In this document: piece after piece, positions 4,516 through 63,996 of the stretch
How positions within the stretch are numbered: the first letter of the stretch is position 1
How the letters are laid out: every line of letters starts with the position of its first letter
Assembly: GCA_958296135.1 (NCBI GenBank)
Contig: CATQHZ010000001.1
Coordinates: forward strand, 4,774,001-4,838,000
Reading direction: 5' to 3'
DNA from: an uncultured Poribacteria bacterium
Lineage (GTDB): Bacteria; Poribacteria; WGA-4E; WGA-3G
Length of the DNA: 64,000 bases
The notes under the pieces: generated by a model
Told to the model about the DNA's origin: nothing
What the model saw: only the letters and a program-made list of their open reading frames with translations
Databases searched by the model: none
Program-made: the position numbers and the translations under genes

Positions 4516-5706
4516 TTACCCTATCCGCTCCGTTCGCGGAGCAGTAACCAAACTTACTAGCAGTGCCATGCCGTAAACCATGCAGGTTTCATCAATATCA
4601 AACTGCGGATGATGGCACATGTTCACGATGCCTTTCTGTTCATTCCCTGCGCCGAGCATGATGAAACAAGCCGGGATTTCCTGCGAATAGCAGCCGAAAT
4701 CCTCGCCGCCGAGCACGGGGGCCATCGGGAAAACGATGTTCTCTTCTCCAACTAACCGGCGCGCAGCCGAAAGCGCAGCGGTAACGCACGACTCATGATT
4801 GTAAGTCACCGGACAGCCTTCCTGATAGGCAAATGTATATGTTGCATCATAGGCAGCCGCCACGCCTGCAAGGCGGCGCTCTAATGCCGCTTTGATGTGC
4901 GTCTGCACAGTTTTTTCCAACGTGCGCACGGTGCCACCGAGCTCCACGGCGGCAGGAATAACGTTCTTGGCATCGCCGCCGTGGAACTGCGTCACACTGA
5001 CGACAGCGGAGTCTAGCGGATTAACGTTCCGTGCAACGATGGATTGCACCGCCGTCACAAACTGCGCGCCTATCACAACCGCATCTACGGTGAGATGGGG
5101 GAACGCAGCATGTCCGCCTTTGCCGGTGAGAGTTACCTCAAACGTATCCGATTGCGCGAGCATCGGGCCCGTGCACGTAGCATAGTGGCCAACAGGAAAG
5201 AGCGGAAAAACGTGGAGGCCGTATATTTCGTCCACCTCTTCCAGCACGCCGTCGGCCATCATCGCCGTCGCGCCACCGGGGAATACCTCCTCACTGGGTT
5301 GGAAAATGAATCTGACGTGTGCCTGGCGCTGGTTCTTGAAGTGTGAGAGAATTCTCGCTGCGCCGATGAGCATCGCCGTGTGCGCGTCGTGCCCACAGAG
5401 ATGTGCCTTGCCATCAAACTTTGAGCGATACGGACTCTCCGTGAGCTCCTGAATGGGGAGGGCATCCATATCGGCGCGGAGAGCAATCCGTCGCGTTGCA
5501 CCCGGTGCCTCCAAGTCCCCGACAACACCTGTTCTGCCAACCCCGGTTCTCACCGGTATGTTGAGCGCGCGCAGTGCGTCCGCCGCAATACCCGCGGTGC
5601 GTTCCACATCAAAGCCCAATTCAGGGTGCTGATGGATATCGCGCCGGATGGCGACGATGTCATCAAAATGGCGGTGGCACTGTTCAAAAATTACGTTTTT
5701 CATCAT
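4516..5706 (-). CDS. M20 family amidohydrolase
   Basis: A 396-residue zinc-dependent M20D amidohydrolase, the family of N-acyl-amino-acid and hippurate hydrolases (ama, hipO, ytnL). It hydrolyses an amide bond in an acylated amino acid or small peptide, probably in the cytoplasm as no signal peptide is seen. Diagnostic segments are RADMDALP, CGHDAHTAML (metal Cys/His) and FQPSEEVFPGG (metal/catalytic Glu pair), with a C-terminal GGEDFG metal segment. Length is normal for the family. Tandem ATGs allow a start at 5706 or 5703. It sits between the VWA gene (40 bases upstream) and the cyclase gene (4 bases downstream). The substrate cannot be told from sequence. Confidence 0.92.
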   Translation of the reverse strand: MMKNVIFEQCHRHFDDIVAIRRDIHQHPELGFDVERTAGIAADALRALNIPVRTGVGRTGVVGDLEAPGATRRIALRADMDALPIQELTESPYRSKFDGKAHLCGHDAHTAMLIGAARILSHFKNQRQAHVRFIFQPSEEVFPGGATAMMADGVLEEVDEIYGLHVFPLFPVGHYATCTGPMLAQSDTFEVTLTGKGGHAAFPHLTVDAVVIGAQFVTAVQSIVARNVNPLDSAVVSVTQFHGGDAKNVIPAAVELGGTVRTLEKTVQTHIKAALERRLAGVAAAYDATYTFAYQEGCPVTYNHESCVTAALSAARRLVGEENIVFPMAPVLGGEDFGCYSQEIPACFIMLGAGNEQKGIVNMCHHPQFDIDETCMVYGMALLVSLVTAPRTERIG

Positions 5707-5746
5707 AGCACGACTCTGTCAGGACTTAGCAAATGCCATCATTGGT

Positions 5747-7321
5747 TTAAAAGATGAAGGTTCGTCTCAGAATACTCCGATGCCCCTGTTCATTCTCAAG
5801 CCGATAGATGACGGTATACACCCCCGGCAAGGTGGCAAAGGCGGCACTGTCAAGTGTCGGAGTCAATTCAATTGCCGTTGTGCCATCATCAGGGATATCC
5901 CAATGCGCTGTCATAGGGCCGTAGCACCGCTCGCCGAGGGGATTGAGGACTTTCCACGTCAGCGTTAACCGCTTGGGCCGCGGCGGATTGTTCACATACA
6001 CCGTAATCCTGTCATCCAAATTCCCTTTGGCGGCACCGAGTGTGCCGAGCTGAGATAACATTTTCTCTGTCAATGTCATCGGCGGCACGTATTCTAGGTA
6101 ACCTTTGCCGGGGATGGCGCGCCAGGTACCGCCTGTCGCCAATGCAAGCTGTTTGACAGGCAGATAGTCAAGCCCGATGACATCTACGCGGATGTTCTGT
6201 TGCTGGAGGGTTTCAATTACCTCGTCTAAACTGTAGGCAGAGCGGCCGTCGTAATCCGCGTCGTGAAACGCCGCGTCACTAGCAAAGAGGAAAAGCCGTT
6301 GCGCGCCGCGCCGGAAGGGACGCTGCGTGACAGCTGCCATGAGTGCGTCTAAGCCGGCTTCTGTCAAATCTCCGCCGCCCTCAACGCGTATCTGAAACAG
6401 CCAATTTTTGAAGGTGCCCAGCGCATCGGTAGGGTGGAGATGGAACGCTGTCCGCACCTTATCGCTGAAAGTGACGAGACTGAAGGTGGCATCGTGTCCA
6501 TCGCGTGCCAGCGCGTCAAACAAAAACGCAACATAGGCGCGGATGCCGCGGATATTGTCGCTCATACTCCCGGTCTCATCGAGAATGAAGACGACATCAA
6601 CTTTCTTCGCTGTTGCGGCAGCAGCGAATTCACGGGCGATTTCTTTCATCATCGTGACGTAAACGCCGCCGACATTGGCAGAACCGGTAGCACTACCGCC
6701 GCCACTACCGCCACCGCCGCCCCATGAGTTGCCCATCCCTGATGTGCGGAAAACGTCGCCGCGTGTACCGGCATAATAGACGTTCGGCGCGCCCACCGAG
6801 GGCGAAGCAGCGTTGTTGAGCGTAGAGCCCTCGCTGTTTAACGCGATAGGGTTCGTTTCGCCCCGCGGCTCCACGCGGGCTGTGGTGTGTCTCGGTGGTG
6901 GCGCGACGCGCTCGGGGCGCAGGTTCACTCGGGTAGCACGCGGCGTTTCCTCGGAAATGATATGATGCGATGAAATGTCAGTTCTTCTGCCGACAGAATC
7001 TTCGCGGGCTCGGACTGTGGTGGAGACTTCCTCGTCACGCCATTCGGTGTTCAACCCGGGTATCGGTTTGGGTGGCGCGGGCGGTTTTACGATTGACGGC
7101 TCCGGTTCAACAGGCGCGGGCGGTTTGAACTCGGGTTTTGGCGGTTCCTCTTCAGGCCGATGGACATGGTAGATTGAGAGCTCCTGTCCAAACTGCACAC
7201 GTTCCAGCTGCACACGTTCTGGCACGAGTCGCCACACGCCAATGAGCAACGCGACGTGGATAAGGAGCGAGTAGAGGAGATAGTGACGGGCTGTTTTTCG
7301 GTTTTTCATAATACGATTCAT
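5747..7321 (-). CDS. Membrane-anchored VWA-domain protein
   Basis: A 524-residue protein with one N-terminal membrane segment (about residues 13-31), a proline-rich TonB-like spacer (PPKPEFKPPAPVEPEP), a glycine-rich linker near residues 200-215 and a von Willebrand factor A domain at about 235-430. The VWA metal site is kept in the form DETGSMS, with downstream T and D residues. The last 90 residues look like a beta-sandwich. VWA domains bind protein ligands through the metal site. The N-terminal half recalls TonB/GltJ-type energy or contact proteins facing the periplasm. The start is uncertain: ATG 7321 has GAGGG directly adjacent, while ATG 7309 has it 12 bases away. It heads the minus-strand run through the M20 and cyclase genes. 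Confidence 0.8.
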   Translation of the reverse strand: MNRIMKNRKTARHYLLYSLLIHVALLIGVWRLVPERVQLERVQFGQELSIYHVHRPEEEPPKPEFKPPAPVEPEPSIVKPPAPPKPIPGLNTEWRDEEVSTTVRAREDSVGRRTDISSHHIISEETPRATRVNLRPERVAPPPRHTTARVEPRGETNPIALNSEGSTLNNAASPSVGAPNVYYAGTRGDVFRTSGMGNSWGGGGGSGGGSATGSANVGGVYVTMMKEIAREFAAAATAKKVDVVFILDETGSMSDNIRGIRAYVAFLFDALARDGHDATFSLVTFSDKVRTAFHLHPTDALGTFKNWLFQIRVEGGGDLTEAGLDALMAAVTQRPFRRGAQRLFLFASDAAFHDADYDGRSAYSLDEVIETLQQQNIRVDVIGLDYLPVKQLALATGGTWRAIPGKGYLEYVPPMTLTEKMLSQLGTLGAAKGNLDDRITVYVNNPPRPKRLTLTWKVLNPLGERCYGPMTAHWDIPDDGTTAIELTPTLDSAAFATLPGVYTVIYRLENEQGHRSILRRTFIF

Positions 7322-7409
7322 CCCTCGTGGGAACGTAGCGCGGGGGCCTGTCCGCCGCCGTGCTTACCTTGATGAACTCGCGCTACGTAAAGAGAAACTT
7401 GTTAATAAT

Positions 7410-7532
7410 TCACGCCTTTTGTGACACCATGCCCGCAAGAATGCCGAGCAGTTTGTCGCACCGTTCGATGGTGTAGACAGACATCTCTATATGGAGTTCC
7501 TGCCCTATCAATTTGAGAAAGAGCCACTCTAC
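7410..7532 (-). pseudogene. C-terminal fragment of split PD-(D/E)XK-like gene
   Basis: Reading down the minus strand from 7532, the frame gives EWLFLKLIGQELHI and continues to a TGA at 7410. It matches the C-terminus of the intact paralogue at 14066-14671 (EWLFLKLEGQKLCI, ending AQKA; here SQKA). The rest of this copy lies at 9001-9486, beyond the tnpB element. The fragment has no start codon of its own. Confidence 0.85.
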
Positions 7533-7571
7533 CGCACTACATAACCTATGAGCATCTCGTCAAATGTAGAC

Positions 7572-8801
7572 TTATCTGGAAACCTGTGCAAAGTCTACGA
7601 GTCTCTGAGAGGTCAGCGGTTTCCTGCTTCTTCCGCGCACACGCGGGTTCTGATGCCAGCCTACCAAAGTAGGTGTGACAGCATCTCCACAGGCGTTTAG
7701 ACTCTCGTCCGTGCTAGACGCGAGTTGTCGAAGGTTTATAGCGGCGTTAACATCCCGATCTTCAACGAATCCACACACACCGCAGTGGTAGTCTCTGTCC
7801 TTGAGCGTCAGTTTGAATTCGCCACGTTTGACGTATCCACAGGAACTGCATCGCTGGGTAGAGGGCCAGAACTTATCTGCTGACACAATACGGATACCCC
7901 GGCGCACCGCTTTGTATTTAAGTTTGACGAGAAAACCACCGAGGCTTGCGTCAGCGAGTGCCTTGCTAAGCTTGCGATTTTTCATCAAACCTTTCACGGT
8001 GAGGCTCTCGATGCCAAGTGCCGAGATGCCTTGCAGGATGCGATGTGTCGCCTGATGATGCGCATCGCTACGGATATTTGCGATACGGGCATGCAGGCGG
8101 GCGAGGCGTTCCTTCGCCTGCCACCAGTTGCGGCTCAGGAACGTCTTGCGGGAGAGTGCCTTATTTGCACGGCGCAGTTTGCGTTCATTGACGCGCAAGG
8201 CACGCGGATTTTCATAGACAGTGCCATCGTCCATCGTGGCGAGGGCAGAGATGCCGACATCACAACCTGCAGGAGGCAGTGCTGACGTGTCGGGCGGTTC
8301 CGGGACATCAACTTCGACGAGGATGCTGATAAACCAGGTGCTTGCCTTTCGCGATACGAAGGCGCGGCGAATCTCGCCGACATAGCGTGGTTTCTCTCGC
8401 AACCTCACATGCCCTATTTTCGGGAGGACAGCAGCGTTGCCATCCTCCGTGATACGGACACTGCCAACCCCGTTGTCAATTTGGAACGATGGCTTTGATT
8501 TATGCGTCTTCCGCTTGGGACGATTGTTCTGTCCGGACTTCCAACGTTGGCGAGCATCCTCAAAGGCGTGGATGGCATTCTTACCGGCGTTCTGCGAGCA
8601 GTCCGCGAATTCGGGGAACACGTCACGTTTGCGAGAGTTGAATGCCTTCTTAATGTCGTAGACAGACATCCAACGCGCTGCGTCACGGGATTCCGAGTGC
8701 GCCGCATTATAGGCGACACGGGCGAAATCCACGTGACGACAGAACATCGCAACTTGTGCCTCGCTAGGTTTGAGTGCTATCTTCTGGGCTCGTAGTGCCA
8801 T
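7572..8801 (-). CDS. tnpB: TnpB RNA-guided nuclease, IS200/IS605 type
   Basis: A protein of about 409 residues from the ATG at 8801 (MALRAQKIALKP). A GTG in frame at 8828 adds nine residues, but those codons lie inside the leader helix. It has the N-terminal OrfB helix-turn-helix region, the RuvC-like Asp in GCDVGIS, the Glu in GIESLTVKGL, a zinc ribbon (CSSCG and CGVCG) and the last Asp in EDRDVNAAINL. All catalytic residues are present. TnpB proteins are RNA-guided DNA endonucleases that use a right-end omega RNA. The 3' end of the gene and the following 40 bases are where that RNA would lie. It appears intact and therefore possibly active. Confidence 0.93.
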   Translation of the reverse strand: MALRAQKIALKPSEAQVAMFCRHVDFARVAYNAAHSESRDAARWMSVYDIKKAFNSRKRDVFPEFADCSQNAGKNAIHAFEDARQRWKSGQNNRPKRKTHKSKPSFQIDNGVGSVRITEDGNAAVLPKIGHVRLREKPRYVGEIRRAFVSRKASTWFISILVEVDVPEPPDTSALPPAGCDVGISALATMDDGTVYENPRALRVNERKLRRANKALSRKTFLSRNWWQAKERLARLHARIANIRSDAHHQATHRILQGISALGIESLTVKGLMKNRKLSKALADASLGGFLVKLKYKAVRRGIRIVSADKFWPSTQRCSSCGYVKRGEFKLTLKDRDYHCGVCGFVEDRDVNAAINLRQLASSTDESLNACGDAVTPTLVGWHQNPRVRGRSRKPLTSQRLVDFAQVSR

Positions 8802-23402: not shown

Positions 23403-23454
23403 GAAAAAAATTGTGTGGCGCGGATACGTTCAAAAACCGCCCCTAACGCAAGAA

Positions 23455-23665
23455 ACGGCCCCTTGAACCGTAGCGCGAGGGCCCGGCGATCGCTAATCGC
23501 CGAGGGTTCCCCTCGCGATCCCCCGACCGTCTCAAAAACGTCAATTAAACCACAGCGCAAAAGCCCATCCCTCGCAGCCCCTTCGATAGACCTAGCATGG
23601 CGGAGGAAACCCTCGGCGATTAGCGATCGCCGGGCCCCCGCCCTACGGACTAAGGGGCCCTTGCG
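23455..23665. repeat. REP-like units between promoter region and small gene
   Basis: A plus-type unit with the CGGCGATC/GATCGCCG-type inner module (about 23468-23520), and a reverse-type unit carrying the same inner module in opposite orientation (about 23590-23660). Confidence 0.75.
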
Positions 23666-57473: not shown

Positions 57474-58847
57474 ATGAAAAACGCCCGGGGCGATCTAACA
57501 CAAGGCAATCTCCTAAAACACCTCTTGCGGCTCGCGGTGCCGTTAACGCTGAGCAATATCCTGCAAGATGCCTTTAACATCGTGGATATGATTTTCGTTG
57601 GGAGATTAGGCCCCGCGTCCATCGCCGCGGTCGGCGTGAGTGGCAATTTGCTGCGGCTTGTCAGCGTTATCTCACTCGGCATCTCCACGGGGAGTGGGGT
57701 AATGGTGGCGCAGTATCTCGGCGCGAAGAACCGTGCGCAGGCGGAGCATGTCGCGATGCAGGCGATTCTACTCTCCATCTTCTTCTCCATCGGCATCGCG
57801 CTCATCGGCTATCCACTCGCGGAGCAAGGGTTACTCACCGTCCGCATGACAGACCCGGAGGTGTTACGCCTCGGCACAACCTACATGCATATCATTCTCA
57901 TCGGGAGCAGCGCGATGTTTTTGTCAATGACACTCGGTTCTATCTTTCGCGCCGGTGGCGACGCGGTCACGCCGATGGTGGTGCTGATTTTCTCAACAGT
58001 TATCAACATCACGTTGGATCCGCTGCTGATTTTCGGGATATGGAAATTTCCGAAACTGGGAGTGGCAGGTTCGGCGTATGCGACGCTCATCGGCAGAGGC
58101 CTCGGCGTGAGTGTCTTGCTCTATCTCTGTTGGAGCGGCCGCGCGCCGCTCTCGCTGCGCAACGTCGAATTCCGCGCGGATTTGGTAGAAATGCTTGACA
58201 TTTTACGGCTCGGCATTTATAGTTCAATGCAGGGGTTCTGGCGGCATCTGTCCCGCCTCGGGTTCCTGTGGGTAATCGGGCCGTTTGGAAAGAACGTCGT
58301 CGCGGCGTATACGATTTGCATGCGGCTTCGGATTCTGGTGATGACCCCGGGGTTTGGCATCTCACACGCCGTATTACCGATGGTGGGACAGAATCTCGGC
58401 GCGAACCAGATAGAACGCGCAGCAAAATCAACGCGGGTTGCGAACCTGGTTGGCGCGGCAGTGATGACGCTCATCGGCGCGATGTTCCTCTTTTTCCCGC
58501 AGGTATTCATTCGGATTTTCGCGCCAGATGAACCGGACGTTGTGGACATCGGCGCGGTTTATTTACAATTTTTATCACCCACGTTCGGCTTTATCGCTTT
58601 TTCATTGGTGTTCGGACGTGCCTTAAACGGTGCAGGCGATACGTTCTCGCCGATGATAATTACGCTGGCGGCGCAAATCGGTGTCGGGTTAGGGCTCGTC
58701 ATCGTGTTATCGCACTTCATCGGCTTGAACGGCGTGTGGCTCGGCATCGCGCTCTCCAATGTTGTGCAAGGCATCGCCATGTGGCTCTGGTATCGCACCG
58801 GCAGATGGAAGACAAAACGCGTTGTGAAAAAAAGTAGGAGAAACTAG
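57474..58847 (+). CDS. MATE-family multidrug exporter
   Basis: A 457-residue transporter with twelve membrane helices in two repeated halves (ILQDAFNIVDMIFVGRLG in the first, GPFGKNVVAAYTI in the second). MATE proteins export drugs or metabolites in exchange for Na+ or H+. GSGVMVAQYLGAKN and GQNLGANQIERA are the matching half-repeat signatures. The length is normal. The stop is 2 bases before the rhodanese ATG, so the two are cotranscribed. The substrate cannot be inferred; it resembles the NorM/DinF-like bacterial branch. Confidence 0.93.
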   Translation: MKNARGDLTQGNLLKHLLRLAVPLTLSNILQDAFNIVDMIFVGRLGPASIAAVGVSGNLLRLVSVISLGISTGSGVMVAQYLGAKNRAQAEHVAMQAILLSIFFSIGIALIGYPLAEQGLLTVRMTDPEVLRLGTTYMHIILIGSSAMFLSMTLGSIFRAGGDAVTPMVVLIFSTVINITLDPLLIFGIWKFPKLGVAGSAYATLIGRGLGVSVLLYLCWSGRAPLSLRNVEFRADLVEMLDILRLGIYSSMQGFWRHLSRLGFLWVIGPFGKNVVAAYTICMRLRILVMTPGFGISHAVLPMVGQNLGANQIERAAKSTRVANLVGAAVMTLIGAMFLFFPQVFIRIFAPDEPDVVDIGAVYLQFLSPTFGFIAFSLVFGRALNGAGDTFSPMIITLAAQIGVGLGLVIVLSHFIGLNGVWLGIALSNVVQGIAMWLWYRTGRWKTKRVVKKSRRN

Positions 58848-58849
58848 CA

Positions 58850-59680
58850 ATGGCTTACAAAGGCTACGAAAACCCTCAACTGGTAATCACCGCTGAGGCG
58901 TTGAAAGACGAACTAGACAAGGAGACGTTCTGTATCGTCGATACACGGCCGACGTATGAATATATCCGCGGGCATATCCCCGGGGCACTGCACTTGGATC
59001 TGTTCGGGTTGAGTCTCACGGACACCCGCATGGAGACGTTTGATACCTTTATGGGGATGATGGCGTACCTGTTTCAGCAGCGCGGACTAGACCCGAGGAA
59101 ACCCATCGTCTGGTATGAGGACATTTCTGGGACTCGTGCCTCACGCGGCTTCTGGTTCTGTGAATACATGGGCCATACTGAGCCGCGGCTGTTAGATGGC
59201 GGTTTCAAGGCGTGGCTTGCAGCAGAGGGCCCCGTCAGTACGGCCGGTGCAGAACCGTCGGAAGTGCCGCCGTTTCCTATCCTTGCACGGCACGATACGC
59301 ACATGAACGTAGATCTGATCCGGCTGCTGCTGAACCGGGACGATTTTATCCCGTTGGATACGCGCACGCCGGATGAACACTACGGCAGAGTGGCGCGTGC
59401 CGCACGCGCCGGTGCCATCCCCGGCTCCATCCATATCGAGTGGCTCGACAACCTTGACGAAAAGGGCGCATTCAAACCAGCCGATGAACTCCGGGAGATG
59501 TACGAGGCAGTCGGCATCTCACCGGACAAGCAGGTAATGTGCTACTGACAGGGCGGCTACCGCTCTTCACAGTCCTATTTGGCGTTGCGGCTTTTGGGCT
59601 ACCCGAAAGTGAGCAACTACATCGGTTCGTGGAAAGAGTGGGGAGACCGGCTGGATTTGCCGGTCGAAGTTCCGGAGTAA
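58850..59680 (+). CDS. Two-domain rhodanese with in-frame UGA at catalytic Cys (probable selenoprotein)
   Basis: The reading frame is open from the ATG at 58850 (AGGAG 9 bases upstream), except for a TGA at 59546-59548, to a TAA at 59678: 276 residues with selenocysteine at 233. Two rhodanese domains lie at about 10-125 and 150-270. The first lacks a catalytic Cys ([14 protein letters not shown]). In the second the active loop reads VMCY-U-QGGYRSS, where relatives have YC-QGG-R, so the UGA falls exactly on the catalytic Cys. The 43 codons after it are fully conserved in style ([24 protein letters not shown]) with no shift. A 7-bp hairpin, AGGGCGG-CTA-CCGCTCT, begins 2 bases after the UGA. The enzyme would transfer sulfur from thiosulfate-like donors. 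A nonsense mutation is the alternative. Confidence 0.8.
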
Positions 59681-59695
59681 TTTCGTTGCGAATCT

Positions 59696-59725
59696 GTAAG
59701 GACGGATATAGACATCCGTCCTTAC
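59696..59725 (+). terminator. Perfect hairpin after the rhodanese gene
   Basis: GTAAGGACGGAT and ATCCGTCCTTAC form a perfect 12-bp stem with a 6-base loop, 15 bases after the TAA. There is no T run, so it may be a repeat element or a weak terminator. Confidence 0.45.
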
Positions 59726-59735
59726 AACAGCCGCC

Positions 59736-59770
59736 TTACATTGACATCTGCTCAGAATTTATGATAAAAT
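59736..59770 (+). promoter_or_regulatory. Promoter of the KAEG-repeat protein
   Basis: TTGACA (59741-59746)-18-TAAAAT (59765-59770), or TTACAT (59736-59741)-18-TATGAT (59760-59765). The following ATAAAATGTTGACA block is shared with the paralogous gene at 14812. Confidence 0.45.
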
Positions 59771-59831
59771 GTTGACAACAGATAGAAGATTCCCTAACAT
59801 TTGTGGGTTACTTAAAAAAAGGACTATCTTC

Positions 59832-60296
59832 ATGCCAGCAGAACGTCAATCGCTAATTAGTGTCAAAGACGTAGAAACCGCTATCGTTCATTTCGGAATA
59901 ATGGAGTCGATTTATCCCTTTCTTGTCATCGGATACGTTCTCATAAAAGGCGGGCACACGCCGCTTGAGACGCTGTTCCTCATTCTGAGGCATTTTCCGA
60001 CAGGCATGCAAATTGGGATAGGGCTCATCATCTTCAAGGAGGCAGTAGACATCATGCTATTCAGACGTTGGAGTGAAGCCAAAGCCGAATTTGCCGCACG
60101 CATCGAACAAGCAAAAACCGAAGGCAAAGCCGAAGGCAAAGCTGAAGGCAAAGCTGAAGGCAAAGCTGAAGGCAAAGCTGAAGGCAAAGCTGAAGGCGTT
60201 GCGGAACGGGACCGGCAGTGGGCGGCGTGGAATAACCGTCGCACAGCAGCGGAAGCGAAGGGCGAACCGTTTAACGAACCGCCACCGCATCCATAA
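59832..60296 (+). CDS. Two-TM protein with KAEG tandem repeats and WNxRR C-terminal motif
   Basis: A 154-residue paralogue of the protein at 14812, from the ATG at 59832. Two membrane segments lie at about 22-42 and 55-76, followed by IMLFRRWSEAKAEFAA. Six tandem four-residue KAEG units follow (12-base DNA repeats, 60118-60192), and the tail reads QWAAWNNRRTAAEAKGEPF-NEPPP. KAEG copy number can change in steps of 12 bases without breaking the frame. The function is unknown. The shared architecture with 14812 and 32881 defines a family. Confidence 0.72.
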   Translation: MPAERQSLISVKDVETAIVHFGIMESIYPFLVIGYVLIKGGHTPLETLFLILRHFPTGMQIGIGLIIFKEAVDIMLFRRWSEAKAEFAARIEQAKTEGKAEGKAEGKAEGKAEGKAEGKAEGVAERDRQWAAWNNRRTAAEAKGEPFNEPPPHP

Positions 60297-62279: not shown

Positions 62280-63431
62280 TTATCTCGCTGGAGGAACCCT
62301 CAAAGCACGTGACATTTCCGCTATGAAAATACCGCGTGCGCCGTTTAAATCCCTGTCACACCGATGACCGTCTGCATCAGTAATCACCTTCGCACCGCCG
62401 AGGTTCTCGACAATGTTACCTGTCCAGCTAATCGTCTTTGACGTATATGCTTCATTGGCATCAACTACAAGAACGCCATATTCCTTCGCCTTTTGCTTCA
62501 GGAACATTTTGAACTGGTAATGCGATAACGTGAGCATTTGTCGGACAGACTTTTTACGGAGCTTCCTCGCACCACGCCGTGTCATCTGCTTTGTTTCAAA
62601 CGTCGGCAGCAGGATAACGTCGTAAGTATTGACAAGGAAGTGTGCAACTTTCTTGTGTAGTTCCTTCACAAGATTACGGATGTTTACCTGAATCTTCTGT
62701 GCGCATTTTCGCAAGGTGCGCCGTAGCGGACGCTTTACTTGTGTTGCGCGGGAGTAGAGATCATCTGCATGTTGGCAGAGCCTCTGGATACGATTAATTG
62801 CATGATGTCCGAGCCAGCCGAACGCCGTTTCAGAAAACATTGTCATGAACGTCCGAACGCCAGGGTCGAGTGCTACGATATGTCCGCTTGAGTCTCGCGG
62901 TTTTGTTTTCTCGATGTAGCTGACGTTCATATAAAACCTGTCATGTTCCATGACGATGCGACTCTCTTTTACCTCAGATTCATGGTCACGTTCCGCCTTC
63001 TTGCCAGGACCTTGCGGCTTCGCTGGGAGCGTTTCTGTCATCTTCATTTCACCGAGTAAGCGGACATAAAAACCATGAGTTTTGATGAACTGCGCACACA
63101 GGTAAAACGACTTCGTGGTGTTCTTCTTCCTGCGGAACTTTACGCATTGCGGTTCACCTGTTTCCTTCCACTTTCGCCGTGCTGCAGTCACCGCTTTCTG
63201 TGCATCCATCACTGCACCGACACGGATATGTCGAGGACAATTCGATGTCCACTCAGGCAGTGTTTTTAGCAAGTCAGGCGCATAAACCTTGCGTCCTTTA
63301 TTGAATTGCTTCACCGCCTCGTTGTAGACGTAACGTGAGATACCTTCCCACCTACGGAGTCTCGCTTTCTGTGCCGTTGTGGGTAAGATTTCGATCTGCT
63401 TTGATTTCGTCACGGTAGCGTCGGAGTCCAT
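62280..63431 (-). CDS. tnpB: TnpB of IS607 type
   Basis: A 383-residue protein from the ATG at 63431; the first 134 codons of the longer open frame overlap tnpA in another frame and are not used. RuvC-like residues are the Asp in ALDPGVRTF, the Glu in [10 protein letters not shown] and the Asp in [12 protein letters not shown]. The usual zinc-ribbon cysteines are absent: where relatives have CxxC the sequence reads [10 protein letters not shown], although SKTxSWTG-type variants are known in this branch. RNA-guided DNA cutting is expected from the family. It overlaps tnpA by 80 bases. Confidence 0.9.
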
Positions 63432-63960
63432 ACATCCGTGAGGAAAAGACGTGGAGAATCTCCAGCAAATCGGAAGTAAGTTCCTGTTCGGGACTGTGAG
63501 GAGTTTGGTTGAGAACCACGACTTCTCCACCGTTTTGCTCGATAAGATATCGAATGACTTCGCTGCCGAAGCGGGCGAGTCTATCCCGATGGGCGACCAC
63601 AACGCGGCGTTGATCACCGCACAGGACTCTGTCCAATATCCGCTGGAGTCCTTTTCGCTTGAAGTTGATGCCACTGCCGAAGTCTTCAATGACTTCCGCA
63701 TCTGGGAACTTTTCCTGCATGTAGGCGACTTGCGAGGCGAGGGCGTCCGCCTGCGCTTTTCCGCTGACACGGAAACCGAAGCAAATGGTAGAAATGTCTG
63801 GTTGACGTTGAGCATCAACAAACTTTTGGACATCGTAACGCCGATGACCGCCTCCAGTGCGCACGCAGTCGATTTCGCCGCGTGCTTCCATCCTGCGAAG
63901 GTGCTCGATGGAAATATCCAACACCTGCGCAGCGTTTTGTGGTGACATTAGGTTATTCAT
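63352..63960 (-). CDS. tnpA: Serine recombinase TnpA of IS607
   Basis: A 202-residue protein from the ATG at 63960; an ATG at 63978 would add six residues. The MerR-like helix-turn-helix (NLMSPQNAAQVLDISIEHL, then GHRRYDV) precedes the serine recombinase catalytic domain with the nucleophile in FRVSGKAQADAL and arginines in VVVAHRDRLARFG. The small serine transposases of this family join circular intermediates with little target specificity. The ATG lies about 8 bases after the -10 box, so the transcript may be leaderless. Confidence 0.92.
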   Translation of the reverse strand: MNNLMSPQNAAQVLDISIEHLRRMEARGEIDCVRTGGGHRRYDVQKFVDAQRQPDISTICFGFRVSGKAQADALASQVAYMQEKFPDAEVIEDFGSGINFKRKGLQRILDRVLCGDQRRVVVAHRDRLARFGSEVIRYLIEQNGGEVVVLNQTPHSPEQELTSDLLEILHVFSSRMYGLRRYRDEIKADRNLTHNGTESETP

Positions 63961-63967
63961 ACCTACA

Positions 63968-63996
63968 TTATCCCACATTTATTCCGCTTTGTCAAG
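63968..63996 (-). promoter_or_regulatory. Promoter of IS607 tnpA
   Basis: TTGACA (63996-63991), 17 bases, GATAAT (63973-63968) on the minus strand; the start codon follows 8 bases later. Confidence 0.55.

Follow-up and report, generated by a model that had tools for sequence, protein, structure and literature searches.

A poribacterial tandem rhodanese gene with UGA at its catalytic codon and a conserved distant RNA structure as its candidate SECIS element

The rhodanese gene and its in-frame UGA

The window analyzed here, a stretch of 64,000 nucleotides from an uncultured poribacterium, contains on its forward strand a rhodanese gene whose reading frame is interrupted by a single TGA. The features of this gene are as follows.

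58836..58840, + strand: AGGAG, Shine-Dalgarno-like, 9 nt 5' of the ATG, as read from the sequence
58850..59680, + strand: rhodanese ORF with tandem domains, read through the UGA (276 aa, Sec at 233)
59546..59548, + strand: UGA at the catalytic position, read as selenocysteine on the basis of the frame, the alignment with 1e0c and conservation among homologues

The frame opens with the ATG at 58850, and reading of the ORF confirmed the statement of a preliminary description of this DNA that 232 residues precede the TGA at 59546-59548 (codon 233) and that the frame runs past it for 43 codons to a TAA (59678-59680). Two stretches of the protein matched the Pfam Rhodanese model (E 3.7e-37), and the best PDB sequence match found by phmmer was 1e0c, RhdA from Azotobacter vinelandii (E 5.7e-40), followed by other tandem sulfurtransferases. 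The predicted fold (mean pLDDT 88.6) is a tandem rhodanese fold of the COG2897/SseA type with two rhodanese domains, and its top Foldseek match was also 1e0c (E 2.9e-21, TMq 0.80). In the phmmer alignment to 1e0c, U233 falls on the C of the active loop C-Q-T-H-H-R, which we take to be the catalytic residue of RhdA, and Cys homologues have TGC there, in agreement with the earlier claim that the UGA occupies the position of the catalytic cysteine. The two proteins are alike in fold and in the C/U-Q start of the active loop, whereas RhdA has Cys in a CQTHHR loop and the protein described here would have Sec in UQGGYR. The N-terminal domain, presumably an inactive rhodanese copy, has WYEDISG at the presumed equivalent site, which was placed by eye. 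None of the 10 listed NCBIfam models, including that for 3-mercaptopyruvate sulfurtransferase (NF008557), was matched above its curated cut-off (best 99.9 bits versus 250). We infer the enzyme class, of the thiosulfate or mercaptopyruvate sulfurtransferase type, as well as the substrate and the sulfur/selenium transfer chemistry. A second tandem rhodanese in the same genome, 33% identical, is of the Cys type, with the loop C-R-I-G-E-R.

Upstream of the rhodanese gene lies what we take to be a MATE-family gene, common to 12 of the 28 loci examined, all poribacterial, while a presumed moeA-like gene was found in 10 of the 28; because these neighbors are common to only so many loci, gene order was dropped as a clue to function. 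Downstream, at window positions 59769-60296 (+), is a small ORF with a KAEGKAEG... repeat.

The preliminary description had proposed looking for selA, selB, selC and selD, and all four were found in the source genome (5.19 Mb, 94.7% complete). The tRNA-Sec scored 78.1 bits (gathering score 47) and was called tRNA-SeC with anticodon TCA by ARAGORN; SelB scored 317.5 bits against a cut-off of 242.25, its gene lying 46 nt from that of tRNA-Sec; and matches were obtained for SelA (596.2) and SelD (350.6), with selD itself having one in-frame TGA. Homologues were analyzed as the best 80 of 107, all of them sequences from assemblies with records titled as MAGs. The closest named relatives among these 80 were MAGs of Candidatus Poribacteria, a phylum known from sponges. 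At the UGA position, the codon was TGA in 69 and TGC in 11 of the best 80 of 107, which come from several phyla; the alignment of the 11 TGC rows continues through the UGA, and the aligned parts of these 80 sequences contain no further stop. This distribution supports the earlier argument that a random nonsense mutation at this very codon is improbable. Altogether, the Sec genes and the Cys homologues aligned across the UGA support the claim of a selenocysteine rhodanese, and we are almost certain that the product is a Sec protein, Sec insertion in the cell being predicted from the same gene set.

The protein adds a member to a family that had already been predicted, the Sec form of the COG2897 rhodanese-related sulfurtransferases. 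According to the available passages of the sources, this form has been in print since 2005 with three sequences from the Sargasso Sea (PMC1088965, in which Figure 3 draws a SECIS for AACY01016424) and is also found in the GOS survey (PMC2398784) and in one review (PMC9312934), while a further review lists a "form 4" with UxxG, MCY3690685.1 (PMC13188914). UGA at the Cys position is common to these and to the gene described here, in which U-Q-G-G corresponds to UxxG; the text passages available from PMC1088965 and PMC13188914, however, mention neither Poribacteria nor Latescibacterota nor a far RNA element. A search of the open-licence literature returned no text with both "selenoprotein" and "Poribacteria", whereas two texts contain both "selenocysteine" and "Poribacteria".

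RNA structure downstream of the UGA

The preliminary description had pointed to a small hairpin directly after the UGA as a possible SECIS element, a role that was not supported. Folding of 59546-59590, the check suggested there, gave -11.8 kcal/mol for the 45-nt piece, but 80 of 200 shuffles folded at least equally well, and the 66-nt fold after the UGA was likewise no better than shuffles. In 34 UGA rows, none of the ten pairs of this hairpin had a change on both sides (4 were invariant, 3 varied on one side only and 3 departed only by unpaired cells), and 85.9% of cells were paired versus 69.1% in 11 Cys rows. Its 3' strand is used by another, covarying helix. This candidate was rejected. 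Rfam gave no match above the gathering score in 59400-59800, and for UGA rows RNAalifold, given up to 66 nt after the UGA, returned no helix longer than 3 bp (-1.4 kcal/mol).

As far as given in the passages available from PMC13188914, bacterial SECIS elements have a loop of 3-9 nt with G in its first two positions, a stem of 4-16 bp and an MFE not above -7.5, and their loop lies 16-37 nt from the UGA. A script that applied these limits and required an unbroken stem found a near hairpin at -7.5 kcal/mol in 1 of the 78 UGA rhodanese genes, at -4 in 4 and at any energy in 34; in the window's own gene there was none within the limits at any energy. In four UGA rows from other phyla (L076, L077, L078 and L080), a hairpin near the UGA folds at -6 to -8 kcal/mol, its loop being 35 nt away from the codon. 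The same script was applied to selD of the same genomes, a set of 31 genes comprising the window genome's own and 30 loci from the phylum search, and found a near hairpin in 11 of 31 at -7.5, 24 at -4 and all 31 at any energy. The selD and rhodanese elements both go with a recoded UGA and both have a G-containing loop; in selD, however, the loop lies 16-17 nt after the UGA in 27 of 31 genes and no arm was seen, whereas the rhodanese has a far loop and an arm, as described below. By eye, the near-hairpin stem of selD in the window's own genome (L099:1483-2574) seems to change in a compensatory manner among relatives, e.g., GGCUC/GAGCU to GGAUC/GAUCU. An in-frame stretch of this selD gene, HSGGGGGHERHPPLQNG, also resembles an inserted repeat, and a search of the 64-kb window with 15 bases of this stretch gave no match.

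Further from the UGA, two conserved helices, P1 and P2, were identified within the last codons of the gene.

59560..59571, + strand: P1 5' strand (59560-59567, plus 59569-59571 where paired), from covariation, RNAalifold and the window's own fold
59572..59629, + strand: arm interior, 58 nt, from folds and tests in other rows
59630..59641, + strand: P1 3' strand (59630-59632 and 59634-59641), from covariation, RNAalifold and the window's own fold
59645..59665, + strand: P2 hairpin of 7 bp with loop UGGAUUU at 59652-59658, the candidate SelB-binding part

Numbered from the U of the UGA, P1 joins nucleotides 15-26 with 85-96, so that positions 15-96 form an 82-nt arm that begins 11 nt after the UGA; P2, GACCGGC-UGGAUUU-GCCGGUC, begins 3 nt past the arm. 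Among distant UGA relatives, same-codon frequency peaked around the UGA, where the conserved codons 237-240 contain the P1 5' strand, and showed an unexpected second peak, in the codon window from 260, that corresponds to P2. Regional covariation analysis (60 nt upstream plus 129 nt from the UGA; 70 rows, effective number 25.8) placed two pairs of P2 and two of P1 at ranks 1, 2, 3 and 5, these being 102-118, 18-93, 21-90 and 103-117, respectively (positions counted from 1). P1 and P2 were both recovered unaided by RNAalifold from the full 126 nt of 34 UGA rows, and both are contained in the window's own minimum-energy fold of the 126 nt. Within the arm, an inner helix (59584-59588 with 59613-59617) was paired in 91% of cells in the 34 UGA rows, the rest of the interior being more variable. 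All seven P2 pairs were present in 61 of 70 UGA rows, six in 8 and five in 1 (L086), with the basal pair being G-G in 6 of the 70. Its loop, with the consensus UGGANYU, begins with UGGA in 78 of 78 UGA genes, and P2 alone folds at about -10 kcal/mol or lower in 76 of 78 rows and at about -7 in the other 2.

We examined P1 and P2 as a conserved RNA in an alignment of 34 of the 70 UGA rows, from which mostly near-duplicates had been removed by hand. Of its 612 cells, 97.4% were paired and 25 were changed on both sides, with a covariation score of 0.154; each of these three values was matched by 0 of 500 shuffles, and shifted-partner controls were 33-48% paired. The other two of the five measures were not unusual: 4 pairs had a two-sided change, a number reached by 94 of 500 shuffles, and there were 7 further pair types, reached by 477 of 500. 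Since drift in G+C could shift third positions together, all third-position pairs of the gene were ranked in the 70 UGA rows, with weighting at 90% identity, and P1 pairs 18-93 and 21-90 came out at ranks 1 and 2 of 33,938; they held ranks 3 and 12 among all 191,760 pairs in the gene, and P2 pairs 102-118 and 103-117 ranked 5 and 138 in the whole-gene analysis. In P1 the substitutions are synonymous: an Arg codon (CGC/CGT) changes together with a Glu codon (GAG/GAA), and a Ser codon (TCT/TCC) together with a Lys codon (AAA/AAG).

An alignment-free test, in which relatives were asked whether they can form the window's minimum-energy fold, gave 589 of 590 P1 cells and 411 of 413 P2 cells in 59 poribacterial UGA rows, 179 of 180 and 117 of 126 in 18 UGA rows from other phyla, and 91 of 120 and 52 of 84 in 12 Cys rows, with shifted whole-fold controls at 29-50% in UGA rows. 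Codon-preserving shuffles gave a mean z of -2.48 for 20 UGA genes (of the 70 rows, thinned at 80% identity) versus -0.11 for 11 Cys genes (Mann-Whitney p 1.3e-4, for rows that are not independent). Energies were weak in L086 (z -0.8), L077 (-1.2) and L084 (-1.3), and the mean pair probability of P1 in L090 was 0.15. Of a further 51 loci, 39 matched earlier ones exactly in this region, 3 (L172, L174 and L192) were too short in the alignment and 9 were new; eight new UGA rows kept 24-27 of 28 pairs, and the new Cys row, L176, kept 18.

In a parsimony count on a tree of 78 UGA rows built only from codons upstream of the UGA, partners shared all 3 steps at both 21-90 and 102-118; at 103-117 they shared 3 steps, out of 3 and 4, and at 18-93 they shared 3 out of 6. 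Of 1,161 control column pairs, 9 shared every step of the rarer column; three of these were P1/P2 pairs, and five of the other six had a partner of 15-23 steps. G-U pairs are kept at 17-94 in 34 of 34 rows and at 100-120 in 8, which fits an RNA on the coding strand, since the other strand would give A-C mismatches. A P2 model built from 24 of the 34 aligned rows (L086, with its poor P2, and nine others were left out) found no second gene in six genomes, with 150 of 5,253-8,466 candidates scored per genome and a next best E of 0.046. Altogether, these results make it very likely that P1 and P2 are real and tied to the recoding of the UGA.

UGA and cysteine forms among relatives

A close orthologue was found in 70 of 84 genomes of the window's own phylum, the other 14 having distant relatives or none. 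One internal TGA was present in 67 of the 70 (66 full length and 1 fragment) and none in 3, so that a rhodanese with Sec at its catalytic site is predicted in 67 of 70 close-orthologue genomes of one phylum. SelB scored above the cut-off in 63 of these 67 genomes, the remaining 4 being 73-83% complete, and SelD with one TGA did so in 75 of the 84. In a second phylum, represented by 64 genomes including those of L071 and L078, TGA was found in 19 of 20 full-length matches; phylum searches centred on L071, from a Latescibacteria genome, and on L078 returned the same 64 genomes. The five genomes of Nitrospinota contained no additional UGA gene. Outside the phylum of the window, SelB was above the cut-off in 19 of 20 UGA-gene genomes and was without such a match in 1 of 20. 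On a tree that took 65 of 90 rows, 4 switches between Sec and Cys were needed, with at least 3 supported by well-supported branches. The genes of L070, L077, L078, L081 and L090 group with Latescibacterota in the tree, although their records say Gemmatimonadota or Gemmatimonadetes, and these names may be out of date; the genome of L090 is among the 64 shared by the two phylum searches.

SelB was also above the cut-off in 10 of 12 Cys-gene genomes, 2 of these 12 being poribacterial. Because most Cys genes nevertheless lack the structure, it is the UGA, and neither the gene nor the Sec machinery, that P1 and P2 follow. In 11 Cys rows, 69.7% of the P1/P2 structure was paired, with 3 to 6 of the 7 P2 pairs formed; P1 alone was still 74% paired, which indicates that part of P1 is forced by the protein. 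The poribacterial Cys genes L079 and L085 lie inside the Sec group on the tree and have lost the structure, L085 retaining 3 of 7 P2 pairs and L079 retaining 6 of 7 but without the loop. The Cys gene L082 (3685-3810) has 10 of 10 P1 pairs, 6 of 7 P2 pairs, a UGGAUCU loop and a z of -2.9, although its own minimum-energy fold is a different one. L082, whose genome has retained SelB, probably went from Sec to Cys recently and would be a relic of that switch; remnant SECIS structures after such changes are reported in the passages available from PMC1794560.

A two-part SECIS model and its alternatives

P2 falls within the published limits for a SECIS in its loop (7 nt, beginning U-G-G), stem (7 bp) and MFE and lies outside them in its spacing, with 103 nt from UGA to loop versus 16-37. 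Subtracting the 82-nt arm leaves 21 nt, inside the published range. We therefore propose the following model, which as a whole, a Sec tandem rhodanese with a two-part SECIS, we consider likely. The UGA would be decoded by SelB and tRNA-Sec, with Sec as the catalytic residue in the loop U-Q-G-G-Y-R, and the mRNA signal would be a two-part SECIS within the last 43 codons. The 82 nt from 11 nt past the UGA would fold into a long arm closed by P1; P2 would be the hairpin bound by SelB, and the P1 arm a folded spacer that brings P2 to 21 nt from the UGA. That P1 and P2 together are the SECIS is probable. The spacer geometry is favored somewhat less strongly; a role as a spacer agrees with the weak conservation of the arm middle, which was 66% paired outside Poribacteria. 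The element probably lies far off because the sequence for the active-site loop U-Q-G-G-Y-R, just after Sec, cannot encode a SECIS as well.

The main alternative is that an ordinary small SECIS lies right after the UGA and that P1 and P2 have another role, e.g., slowing ribosomes or protecting the mRNA. The published model, in the available passages of PMC13188914, has the hairpin near the UGA; selD of the same genomes has a near hairpin, so the machinery itself needs no far one; synonymous codons are conserved right around the UGA too; and the four rows from other phyla with a loop 35 nt after the UGA have a fair hairpin. These points are outweighed by two absences: 77 of 78 UGA genes have no near hairpin within the published limits at -7.5 kcal/mol (the window has none whatever the energy), and the hairpin at 59546-59590 shows no compensatory change. 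Moreover, the conserved codons near the UGA, 237-240, hold the P1 5' strand, and P1 and P2 are lost in most Cys genes despite SelB in 10 of 12 of their genomes. We regard an ordinary adjacent SECIS as unlikely.

The same association of the structure with the UGA, and not with the presence of SelB, would also suit a read-through element, at which another tRNA decodes the UGA or the release factor is hindered and no selenocysteine is made; given the full Sec gene set in the genome, Cys at this site in all 11 non-UGA rows of the best 80 of 107 homologues, and a SelD in the same genomes that is a UGA gene as well, this is very improbable. P2 might instead terminate transcription or belong to the opposite strand. 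It does lie near the 3' end of the gene, and convergent gene ends are close by in some loci, but it is within the coding sequence with no T-run behind it, it has decayed in most Cys genes, and the kept G-U pairs fit the coding strand; we consider such a role highly improbable. A nonsense mutation, in a pseudogene or through a sequencing error, has a negligible probability in view of TGA in 69 of the best 80 of 107 homologues from several phyla, the absence of another stop in their aligned parts and the conservation of the protein downstream; no evidence in its favor was found.

P2 resembles the bacterial SECIS model in the passages available from PMC13188914 in loop length (7 nt), stem length (7 bp), the G among loop positions 1 and 2, and energy; the model, however, has 16-37 nt to the loop, whereas here there are 103 nt with an 82-nt arm between. 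Passages of the same review and of the deep-Sep paper state that there are bacterial SECIS elements outside the model. Among open-licence titles, beginnings of abstracts and available passages, we found no description of a long-range, looped-out, atypical or covarying bacterial SECIS of this arrangement. We lean toward P1/P2 representing a new class of bacterial SECIS, in which the SelB hairpin lies about 100 nt off and is brought near by a separate long-range helix. As described, the bacterial SECIS adjoins the UGA, so that the codons following Sec have to form a hairpin as well; P1/P2 offers a covarying alternative to the adjacent hairpin, kept across several phyla. If the model is true, a bacterial SECIS need not adjoin its codon in sequence, the residues after Sec are freed from coding a hairpin, and searches restricted to 16-37 nt miss such genes. 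The rhodanese gene makes it possible to test directly which distance matters to SelB, the one along the sequence or the one in space, and it suggests looking for far hairpins in UGA genes without a near one.

Elsewhere in the window, ARAGORN called a tRNA-Ala with anticodon AGC at 23446-23525 (-). This anticodon is unusual for tRNA-Ala in a bacterium, and the call may be a pseudogene or a miscall. According to ORF translations, a TnpB-like ORF lies beside a resolvase-like ORF with an N-terminal HTH at 62280-63978 (-), a pair that, as we take it, resembles an IS607-type element.
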